From: Algibacter marinivivus
Lineage (GTDB): Bacteria > Bacteroidota > Bacteroidia > Flavobacteriales > Flavobacteriaceae
NCBI RefSeq assembly: GCF_003143755.1
Contig: NZ_QFRI01000001.1
Span: 1,324,051 to 1,388,050 of the forward strand
Reading direction: 5' to 3'
DNA length: 64,000 nt
Shown here: positions 56,785 through 59,607 of the stretch, piece by piece
Layout of the letters: each line of letters begins with the position of its first letter
How positions within the stretch are numbered: the stretch's first letter is position 1
Notes under the pieces: generated by a model
The model's input: the letters and a program-made list of their open reading frames with translations, nothing else
What the model was told of the DNA's origin: nothing
The model's database searches: none
Position numbers and translations under genes: made by a program

Positions 56785-57999
56785 ATGATTTTAGAAATGA
56801 AAGTCCCTTCACCAGGGGAATCTATTACAGAAGTTGAAATAGCAACGTGGTTAGTTGAAGATGGAGATTATGTTGAAAAAGATCAAGCTATTGCTGAGGT
56901 AGATAGTGATAAAGCAACCCTTGAATTACCAGCAGAAGCTAGTGGGACTATTACGCTTAAAGCAGAAGAAGGTGATGCTGTTGAAGTTGGGGCTGTAGTT
57001 TGTTTGATTGATACAAGTGCAGCTAAGCCAGAAGGAGGTGATGCTCCAAAAGAAGAAAAGAAAGCGGATGCTCCAAAAGCTGAAGCTCCAAAAGCACCAA
57101 CTGCTACAGAAACTAAAACATATGCTACAGGTAGTGCAAGTCCTGCAGCAAAAAAGATTTTAGCAGAGAAAGGAATGGATGCAAATTCAATTTCTGGAAC
57201 TGGTAAAGATGGAAGAGTAACTAAAGAAGATGCTGTAAATGCTGTACCTTCAATGGGAACGCCAACTGGTGGAAATCGAGGAACTTCTAGAAGTAAAATG
57301 TCTATGCTACGCAGAAAAGTAGCAGAGCGTTTAGTAGAAGCTAAAAATACAACGGCAATGTTAACGACTTTTAATGAAGTTGATATGTCTCCAATTTTTG
57401 CTTTAAGAAAAGAATACAAAGAAACATTTAAAGGAAAGCATGGTGTAAGTTTAGGCTTTATGAGTTTCTTTACTTTAGCAATTGTAAGAGCATTAAAAAT
57501 GTATCCAGCTGTTAATTCAATGATTGATGGCAAAGAAATGCTTTCTTATGATTTCTGTGATATTAGTATTGCTGTTTCTGGACCTAAAGGACTTATGGTA
57601 CCAGTAATTAGAAATGCTGAAAATTTAAGTTTTAGAGGTGTTGAATCTGAAGTGAAACGATTAGCGCTTCGTGCTAGAGACGGTCAAATCACAGTTGATG
57701 AAATGACAGGAGGTACCTTTACAATTACCAATGGTGGTGTTTTTGGAAGTATGTTATCTACACCAATAATTAATCCACCGCAAAGTGGAATTTTGGGTAT
57801 GCATAACATTGTTGAACGTCCAGTTGCTATTGATGGTAAAGTTGAAATAAGGCCAATTATGTACGTCGCATTATCTTATGACCATAGAATTATTGATGGA
57901 AAAGAAAGTGTTGGATTTTTAGTTGCTGTTAAAGAAGCTCTTGAAAATCCAGTAGAAATTTTAATGGCTAATGATGTTAAAAAAGCATTAGAGTTATAA
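56785..57999 (+). CDS. sucB: 2-oxoglutarate dehydrogenase E2 (dihydrolipoyl succinyltransferase)
   Basis: A 404-residue core of the 2-oxoglutarate dehydrogenase complex. One lipoyl domain (residues 1-78) with the lipoylated Lys in [13 protein letters not shown], an Ala/Pro/Lys-rich linker (about 82-112), the E3-binding domain (about 118-152, [22 protein letters not shown]) and the catalytic domain with [16 protein letters not shown] near the C-terminus (His/Asp active site). It starts 33 bases after sucA; the E3 gene is elsewhere. Confidence 0.96.
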
Positions 58000-58015
58000 A
58001 TTACTAATAGAAAAT

Positions 58016-58055
58016 AAAAAAGGGTGTTACATAATTTATGTAACACCCTTTTTTC
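58016..58055 (+). terminator. Terminator of sucAB
   Basis: AAAAAAGGGTGTTACAT pairs with ATGTAACACCCTTTTTT, a long stem with flanking A and T runs, 20 bases past the stop. It may also end minus-strand transcripts carrying the microprotein gene. Confidence 0.92.
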
Positions 58056-58081
58056 GTTATGGGATATGAGGCTCTAACTAA

Positions 58082-58198
58082 CTAAATAAAAAACATAACG
58101 ATATTTACTGTAATAACTATTACAACTAAAATTGATAATCCCACAATAATATATTTATTAAGAATATTATTTTCTTTTTCCATTTGAGCTTTAAGCAT
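58082..58198 (-). CDS. 38-residue single-helix membrane microprotein
   Basis: A short frame: a charged N-terminus (MLKAQMEKENNILNKY) then a continuous hydrophobic helix (IIVGLSILVVIVITVNIVMFFI) to the stop. The charged lead followed by a perfect membrane-spanning length is unlikely by chance in AT-rich noncoding DNA, yet it cannot be proven from one sequence. It lies 25 bases downstream of the second sRNA-like module on the same strand and ends before the sucAB terminator, so it could be expressed by read-through or from its own promoter. Confidence 0.5.
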   Translation of the reverse strand: MLKAQMEKENNILNKYIIVGLSILVVIVITVNIVMFFI

Positions 58199-58222
58199 TG
58201 GTTTGGGTTTTTAATATTTTGT

Positions 58223-58290
58223 TTAAAAACTCTGCACCATTACAGTGCAGAGTATCTAAAAAATTCTCTCTCAAAAGAATTAATTAATAG
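58223..58290 (-). ncRNA. Candidate small RNA, module 2
   Basis: On the minus strand a TAATTTTA box (58296-58303) precedes TGCTATTAATTAATTCTT and ends at the hairpin ACTCTGCAC (58229-58237) / GTGCAGAGT (58245-58253) with loop TGTAATG and T5. The predicted RNA is about 68 nt without an open frame. Palindrome TACGTAGAAGTGCGTA lies exactly 23 bases upstream of the box. It is a diverged tandem copy of module 1. Confidence 0.6.
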
Positions 58291-58326
58291 CAATGTAAAA
58301 TTAAGATAGGTTTAGGAGAAAAAAAA

Positions 58327-58342
58327 TACGCACTTCTACGTA
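58327..58342. promoter_or_regulatory. Candidate response-regulator site, module 2
   Basis: TACGCACTTCTACGTA, an imperfect 16-bp palindrome identical to 58473-58488. It lies 23 bases upstream of the -7-like box of module 2, a usual place for an activator. LuxR/NarL-type regulators bind such short inverted TAC...GTA sites. Confidence 0.5.
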
Positions 58343-58366
58343 TTTTAATATTGGAAGGAATGGGTT

Positions 58367-58436
58367 AAAAAAACGAAAGCTCTAAATCATTACAATTTAG
58401 AGCTTTCTATAATTCTCCCTAAGAACTAATTAATAG
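58367..58436 (-). ncRNA. Candidate small RNA, module 1
   Basis: On the minus strand a TATCTTTA box (58442-58449) precedes TGCTATTAATTAGTTCTT and ends at a perfect 13-bp hairpin GAAAGCTCTAAAT (58375-58387) / ATTTAGAGCTTTC (58395-58407) with loop TGTAATG and T7. The predicted RNA is about 70 nt with no open frame. The same 16-bp palindrome lies exactly 23 bases upstream of the box. Confidence 0.62.
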
Positions 58437-58472
58437 CACTGTAAAGATAAATGATATAAACGAAACAAAAAA

Positions 58473-58488
58473 TACGCACTTCTACGTA
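58473..58488. promoter_or_regulatory. Candidate response-regulator site, module 1
   Basis: TACGCACTTCTACGTA, identical to 58327-58342 and at the same distance (23 bases) from the -7-like box of its module. AAATACG/CGTATTT around it could also act as a weak terminator for the response regulator gene ending at 58501. Confidence 0.5.
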
Positions 58489-58500
58489 TTTTATACGCAA

Positions 58501-59133
58501 CTATAAAAAATCTTTGTTTATAGTTGCCCAAATTGAAAGTGAGGTGGGTTTATTGTCTAGACTCAATTTGTGTACAATATTACTTCTGTGTTTATCTACC
58601 GTTCTAACAGAAATAGATAATTCATCGGCAATATCTTGACTTGTATTATTTTCAGAAATAAGTTTAACAATTTTTAATTCAGATTTAGTTAGAGAATCTA
58701 GTGCTTCAGGCTTATTTTCTAAAGTACTGGCTTTTAAATAAGATGCTATTTCTTCACTAAAATATGGTTTGCCATTTACAACTTGACTGATGCAAGTTTC
58801 AATTTCTTCAATAGCAAATTCTTTTAAAATATAACCAAAAACACCAAATTCTAATGCTTGATCATATACTTCTTCTTCTTTATCAAAAGTTATTAGAATA
58901 ACTTTAGTAGGCAAATCATTTTTTTGACAAGCTTCTGCAATTTCTAATCCAGTCATATAAGGCATTCTTATATCTAGAATAGCAATTTCAGGTTTTAATT
59001 TAACAATAAGATTGTACGCGGTTTTACCGTCTTCTGCACTACCTATAATATTGTAGCCTTTTGAAGTTAAAAAATCTGTCAACCCTCGTAACATTAAAGG
59101 GTGATCATCAGCAATAACAATAGATGTATTCAT
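58501..59133 (-). CDS. NarL/FixJ-type response regulator
   Basis: A 210-residue two-component regulator. Receiver domain (residues 1-120) with acidic pocket DDH near residue 8, phospho-acceptor Asp in AILDIRMPY (about 55), switch Thr in LITFD and Lys in YILKEFA. The C-terminal LuxR-type helix-turn-helix (about 145-205) has LTKSELKIVKLISENNTSQDIADELSISVRTVDKHRSNI. No histidine kinase gene is adjacent. It is 33 bases after the retropepsin gene on the same strand. Directly downstream lie two identical palindromes and two sRNA-like modules that it may control. Confidence 0.93.
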   Translation of the reverse strand: MNTSIVIADDHPLMLRGLTDFLTSKGYNIIGSAEDGKTAYNLIVKLKPEIAILDIRMPYMTGLEIAEACQKNDLPTKVILITFDKEEEVYDQALEFGVFGYILKEFAIEEIETCISQVVNGKPYFSEEIASYLKASTLENKPEALDSLTKSELKIVKLISENNTSQDIADELSISVRTVDKHRSNIVHKLSLDNKPTSLSIWATINKDFL

Positions 59134-59166
59134 TTACTTAAAAGAGAGACTTGGTTTGCTATTAAT

Positions 59167-59607
59167 TTATAACTTTAAATATAGATATTTCTTTTCGTAA
59201 TCTATGATAGCTTTTCCTTTTTTTAAAATATCTGCACCAATGATGCCATCTACGGGTTTAGAGTTATGATTTATTAATGCCGTATTTACATGGGTAAGAT
59301 TAAATAAAACTAAGACAACTTTGTTGTTAGTCCATTTACCAATTTTCACATTATTTTTCTTAGCAGTTTTTGTATCCATATCTATGGCACCAGCGCCAGC
59401 AGCTTTAATTAAAGAATCTTCAGCATTTAATTTAAATGTTTCTATACCTTCAAAACCAACACAAGAACTAGATGCACCAGTATCTAAAATAAAACTACCT
59501 TTCACATTATTAATAGTTGCTTTTATTTCAAAATGATTGGTTTTGGTAAGTTTCAACTTTATTTTGGTATATCCTTTTTCTTCAAGAAATTCTTTCAGTG
59601 TTTCCAT
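59167..59607 (-). CDS. Retropepsin-like aspartic protease family protein
   Basis: A 146-residue single-domain clan AA protein. The active-site motif is FILDTGASSSCVG (Asp near residue 42) and the second family glycine motif is VDGIIGADILKKGKAIIDY. It would act as a dimer. There is no signal peptide, so it is cytoplasmic unless exported otherwise. It precedes the response regulator gene by 33 bases and is divergent from tatD. Target unknown. Confidence 0.85.
   Translation of the reverse strand: METLKEFLEEKGYTKIKLKLTKTNHFEIKATINNVKGSFILDTGASSSCVGFEGIETFKLNAEDSLIKAAGAGAIDMDTKTAKKNNVKIGKWTNNKVVLVLFNLTHVNTALINHNSKPVDGIIGADILKKGKAIIDYEKKYLYLKL

Follow-up and report, generated by a model that had tools for sequence, protein, structure and literature searches.

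The nearest known relatives of the RNAs described here are the FopS sRNAs, by build and phylum, and the CiaR-dependent csRNAs and UvrY/GacA-controlled sRNAs, by logic. FopS is a paralogous sRNA family of Bacteroides thetaiotaomicron whose members are reported to have canonical sigma-ABfr promoters and to bind the RRM protein RbpB (PMC11697453). In streptococci, several highly similar csRNAs depend on a single two-component response regulator, CiaR (PMC3091779, PMC8186281). In the BarA-UvrY/GacA systems, the redundant sRNAs CsrB/RsmZ are turned on by a response regulator of the LuxR type and sequester CsrA/RsmA via repeated GGA motifs (PMC4682653). A conserved flavobacterial sRNA is also on record: Rfp18 of Flavobacterium psychrophilum is predicted to pair with metalloprotease mRNAs via its third stem-loop (PMC9723704).

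We analysed a 64,000-nucleotide stretch of the Algibacter marinivivus genome (the window), in which two tandem modules occupy positions 58217-58492 of the minus strand, as do all features given below for this locus. Immediately ahead of them ends a 210-aa response regulator gene (58501..59133) of the NarL/LuxR type (Pfam Response_reg 1.1e-25, GerE 5.7e-12), the product of which is the proposed activator. Directly upstream of the regulator gene lies a retropepsin-like aspartyl protease gene (Asp_protease_2, 2e-10; 59167-59607), an arrangement also seen in some relatives, for example at locus L035. Each module consists of an inverted repeat, 23 nt, a TAnnTTTA box, TGCTATTAATTA, a small hairpin and a terminator. 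The sequence TACGTAGAAGTGCGTA, found at 58473-58488 and 58327-58342, extends into a 24-bp inverted repeat, AAAATACG-tagaagtg-CGTATTTT, which forms putative operator A (58469..58492), whose midpoint is at -43 relative to the G of GCTATT, and, with the same repeat, putative operator B (58323..58346). Exactly 23 nt separate the repeat from the box in both modules. The box itself, TATCTTTA at 58442..58449 in module A and TAATTTTA at 58296..58303 in module B, is a candidate -7 element resembling the Bacteroidota TAnnTTTG, and the position of the module A box is kept in relatives.

Downstream of the box, both modules continue with TGCTATTAATTA and then (A/G)TTCTT. The predicted sRNA A (58367..58437; ~71 nt) and sRNA B (58217..58291; ~70-75 nt) share the predicted 5' end GCUAUUAAUUA. 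This is followed by hairpin 1 (58411-58427 in sRNA A, 58262-58281 in sRNA B) and by a terminator hairpin with the loop TGTAATG in both, the stem being GAAAGCTCTAAAT within 58375-58407 in sRNA A and ACTCTGCAC at 58229-58253, with a short U tract, in sRNA B. Both sequences fold much more stably than their dinucleotide shuffles, with z = -3.8 for sRNA A and z = -3.7 for sRNA B. A covariance model matched sRNA B with E 1.5e-5 and sRNA A with E 5.0e-11, the latter value coming from a model that includes sRNA A's own sequence. All parts of the layout that the earlier note had read from the sequence, namely the operator, the 23-nt spacing, TAnnTTTA, the 5' GCTATTAATTA, TTCTT and the TGTAATG terminator loop in two tandem minus-strand modules, are present. 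As to its statement that no open reading frame fits the ~70-nt transcripts, the module region does overlap with TTG-initiated ORFs of 24-33 aa, which look incidental.

We assessed operator geometry in 215 dereplicated modules from relatives, 127 of which have a strong upstream inverted repeat. In 126 of these 127 the palindrome centre precedes the G of GCTATT by 43 or 42.5 bp; the one palindrome off -43 was dismissed as an antisense artefact. A palindrome score of 12 was reached by 38% of modules versus 1% of shuffled upstream regions. This constant distance, together with an 18-nt core that occurs without mismatch only three times in the 3.3-Mb host genome, shows that the module layout did not arise by chance. 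The fixed distance also makes the G of GCTATT, or a neighbouring base, the likely transcription start. Class-II LuxR-type activators act from a lux box at -42.5, and the predicted operator at -43 matches this class-II position. The TACGTAG-n2-CTACGTA arrangement is similar to the 7-2-7 site of NarL. At the level of sequence, each copy has a candidate regulator site at a fixed promoter position.

Operator type and regulator type went together wherever an upstream regulator was found. TACGTA-type operators followed a NarL-type response regulator in 143 modules and TACTCAA-n-TTGAGTA operators followed a PAS-LuxR protein in 28, with no crossing in either direction (Fisher p ~1e-32, a value that ignores shared descent). 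What counts, p value aside, is that both operator classes hold across many genera. For seven TACGTA-type modules, the 1.5 kb upstream contained no response regulator; among them are far-end copies of long arrays, a lipoprotein mRNA and a Mangrovimonas-like case. In rarer cases, a TACCCA..TGGGTA operator follows another histidine kinase/response regulator pair, and an CTTACGGTAAGCCGTAAG operator follows another response-regulator-like gene. As copies stand beside different regulators, each with a matching palindrome, several sensors appear to feed one RNA output, an unusual wiring.

The terminator hairpins covary. In an alignment of 50 members, which is partly biased to the main class since a pattern containing hairpin 1 had been used to gather many of its members, double changes that keep pairing were found at 15 of 15 terminator pairs, and the terminators were in none of the search patterns. 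The terminator covariation score was 0.473 versus 0.240 for shuffled alignments and at most 0.174 with partners slid, and a terminator-like hairpin is present in 207 of 242 modules. The main class retains hairpin 1, and the changes seen there in alignment A1 are all one-sided (G-U to A-U and similar); some divergent copies have an intact, differently sequenced hairpin 1, and a subset with GCTATTAATCAATTACC..GGGA has no convincing one. Hairpin 1 is therefore not universal, and the family-wide parts are the first nine bases and the terminator only. The earlier note had pointed to compensatory change between the stems of the twins, and had suggested looking among relatives for the layout and for hairpin covariation. 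The twins alone are weak evidence of such change; the relatives provide strong evidence in the terminator hairpins, and the operator spacing is conserved among them. Comparison thus marks the modules as conserved units with predicted promoters and terminators, linked to their cognate regulators.

The host genome has further members. One more occurrence of CTTTACAGTGCTATTAATTAGTTCTTAGGGAGAATTATA, a 39-nt stretch of module A, is in a third copy (G of GCTATT at C1:547945, minus strand) that has the exact 5' domain and a different terminator and lies directly after a 256-aa PAS-LuxR gene. A probable fourth member, GCTATTAATCAGTTCATA, without a palindrome, lies at C1:1855934. GCTATTAATCAGTTCATA plus a terminator makes up a further sRNA-like class, seen at this host site and at L267 (2435, plus strand), where TTAATCTTTTTTAATAACACTTnnTCGAAAA is conserved upstream and a palindrome is lacking; this class is probably under the control of another regulator.

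The covariance model gave three matches in the host genome and up to five in relatives. Pattern matches with at most two mismatches, some of the two-mismatch ones being chance, were found in 38 of 149 genomes and 29 of 115 genera. The covariance model, which is stricter, placed the RNA in 22 of the 89 genomes examined, representing 14 of 68 sampled genera, every one within the Flavobacteriaceae. Across 295 genomes spread over the class, the sole covariance-model match outside the host genome (G231/L265, E 6.6e-4), which lies outside the Flavobacteriaceae, was rejected as a false positive made up of a gene end plus terminator. Named carriers include Algibacter, Tamlana, Lacinutrix, Olleya, Hyunsoonleella, Seonamhaeicola, Xanthomarina, Mangrovimonas, Flaviramulus and Formosa. 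Genomes of the genus have several copies each, and between one and four tandem copies were counted beside the response regulator, usually 130-160 bp apart. In an uncultured Bizionia the array is expanded, with six or more operator-plus-sRNA-like units in tandem behind a single response regulator (L171, 2251-4377).

An Rfam scan of positions 57900-59200 returned no family at gathering score and only sub-threshold chance matches. Text searches, which covered the open literature and few subscription papers, found no description of the RNA family, nor any relevant paper that prints the 5' element; the earlier note knew of no such flavobacterial sRNA pair. The pair belongs to a larger family than had been proposed, with several members per genome and paralogs apparently placed on other LuxR-type regulators with other operators. 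This ~70-nt RNA family of marine Flavobacteriaceae appears to be previously unlisted.

Set against the described systems, the Algibacter RNAs share with the csRNAs the presence of several highly similar sRNAs beside one two-component response regulator. CiaR, however, is an OmpR-type regulator that binds direct repeats, whereas the Algibacter regulators are of the LuxR/NarL type with inverted repeats, and different paralogs would answer different regulators. With CsrB/RsmZ they share a LuxR-type response regulator that would switch on redundant sRNAs. Pfam searches of the host genome, however, gave no match to CsrA/RsmA (PF02599), nor to Hfq (PF17209), with control genomes positive, nor to RRM-1 of the RbpB type (PF00076), with a control Bacteroides genome positive; in addition, module B has no GGA loop. 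A CsrA-type decoy, suggested by AGGGA in the loop of hairpin 1, was rejected, since the host search gave no CsrA and the AGGGA motif is missing from module B.

The likeness to FopS is one of build: multicopy RNAs of about 65-70 nt, in the same phylum, with a variable 3' half (PMC11697453). FopS RNAs have no described regulator-linked palindromes (PMC11697453), whereas the Algibacter RNAs have putative class-II LuxR-type operators and an extra 5' hairpin, and no RRM protein was found in the host genome. Scanning against Rfam 15 with hits allowed up to E = 5 gave no FopS match, the presence of a FopS model in that Rfam copy being unconfirmed. Rfp18 is likewise a conserved flavobacterial sRNA and is set apart by description, as the consulted part of its description reports neither a copy family nor a regulator link (PMC9723704). 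Membership of the FopS or Csr/Rsm families fails on the partner protein, whereas the predicted RNAs fit the kind of sibling sRNAs under two-component control on all features that sequence can test.

The 5' element is also found at the start of mRNAs. These begin with (G/A)CTATTAAT(C/T)A at the predicted +1, after a -7 box, and ATG follows 22-32 nt later; most encode signal-peptide proteins, as judged by eye in about a dozen gene families. In 10 genus genomes, the box-plus-element pattern gave 66 matches, some of them inside genes, versus 3-4 for the reversed control. One conserved lipoprotein gene (MRNLKQIM...TSC; L023; host C1:1853279-1853340) has, in several genus members, both a TACGTA-type operator at -43 and the leader (G/A)CTATTAATCA, and is therefore likely to be a co-regulated target of the response regulator. 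At L274 (690-3916), two large genes for exported proteins come after a histidine kinase/LuxR-type response regulator pair, and both have an AATCCCCAGTACTGGGGATT-type palindrome at or near -43 and an GCTATTAATTA leader. About five operator-driven promoters in relatives (L054, L134, L155, L197 and L253) have no GCTATTAAT at +1. The element is therefore unlikely to be a promoter or initiation requirement and is probably selected at the RNA level. None of 24 host-genome sites inspected held a convincing complement of the element at a start codon; in L219, one element-complement site precedes a further response regulator gene by ~65 nt.

Taking the evidence whole, we favour, at a probability of roughly 0.6, a family of multicopy ~70-nt trans-acting sRNAs that would be activated by the adjacent regulators and pair with mRNAs through the 5' GCUAUUAAU. 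The earlier proposal of duplicated sRNAs activated by the adjacent response regulator thus survives as the best reading, consistent with the covariation, the spacing and the pairing of operator with regulator types. Of the outcomes that the earlier note had named as refuting it, those open to sequence comparison, namely unconserved spacing or hairpins and palindromes that are nothing but terminator stems, were not borne out. The NarL/LuxR-type response regulator, presumably phosphorylated, would bind the TACGTA palindrome at -43 and activate each sRNA promoter as a class-II activator. RNA polymerase would start at or next to the G of GCTATTAATTA and stop at the intrinsic terminator, a step supported by the covariation. 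Paralogs elsewhere in the genome would be activated by other LuxR-type regulators via other palindromes, so that different signals would converge on RNAs with one 5' end. The unpaired, invariant GCUAUUAAU at the extreme 5' end would most likely pair with target mRNAs near their start codons, as in FopS. That the modules are regulator-activated sRNAs is highly probable; that the sRNAs act mainly by base pairing is favoured with some reserve. A pure antisense model has against it that the element itself, not its complement, begins several mRNAs, and the high A/U content of the 5' end would make pairing weak. The invariant 5' GCUAUUAAU is probably what carries the function, via FopS-like base pairing or as a leader decoy.

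In the decoy version, with transcriptional control as in the sRNA reading, the RNAs would copy the 5'-leader element of envelope-protein mRNAs and titrate a protein or RNA acting there, by the logic of CsrB/RsmZ and with a hypothetical partner. The element-led mRNAs with their mostly signal-peptide products and nearby ATG, the excess over the reversed control, the operator at -43 of the lipoprotein gene and a promoter that does not need the element all speak for it. We nevertheless regard it as rather unlikely: searches of the host genome gave no member of the CsrA, Hfq or RRM families, such mRNAs are few, and their bias towards exported genes was judged by eye. A different possibility arises from the small membrane-peptide ORF directly downstream of module B (58082..58198; MLKAQ-MEKENNILNKYIIVGLSILVVIVITVNIVMFFI; 38 aa, or 33 aa if counted from an internal Met at 58183). 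By tblastn, a ~33-aa single-span membrane peptide, MEKENNxLxKYxxIGLxxLVVxVIxINIxxxF, follows modules in many genera, so module B, whose terminator has a short U tract, may be both an sRNA and, through a leaky terminator, the leader of the 33-aa peptide. A mainly cis-acting role of the modules, as leaders or attenuators of this gene that release short RNAs as by-products, is improbable, given that PAS-LuxR-linked copies end facing an unrelated gene, that module A is followed by a second promoter and no ORF, and that the ORF at some loci has an apparent operator and box of its own without the 5' element.

Two further explanations, both very improbable, would do without regulatory RNAs. The palindromes could be only terminator stems of the response regulator gene, the outcome named in the earlier note as counting against it, and the rest chance or repeat debris; AAAATACG..CGTATTTTTT can indeed form an A/U-rich stem followed by T residues. 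However, a palindrome stands at the fixed -43 before every tandem copy, the TACTCAA-type palindromes have no T run and a similar palindrome is found at -43 of an mRNA promoter; operator geometry and the match of operator with regulator types already contradict it. Tandem expansion to several copies at some loci could likewise suggest a dispersed, REP-like repeat or mobile element that happens to hold a promoter and a hairpin, but copy number is low, synteny with cognate regulators extends across many genera and the sequences diverge while pairing is kept.

For the sRNA family favoured here, a wider role is conceivable, if doubtful: GCUAUUAAU would be common to several sRNAs, each on its own LuxR-type pathway, and to the leaders of envelope-protein mRNAs, with the sRNAs acting as leader mimics that titrate a factor independent of Hfq, CsrA and RRM proteins. 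If true, several signals would tune one envelope programme. Regulatory RNAs of the Flavobacteriaceae are poorly known, and the RNA chaperones searched for were not found in the host genome. The family offers a defined RNA, a defined operator, a named adjoining regulator and at least two natural operator-regulator pairs, so that the operator specificity of LuxR-type regulators and sRNA action without a chaperone can be tested in culturable genera, among them Algibacter, Tamlana and Olleya.
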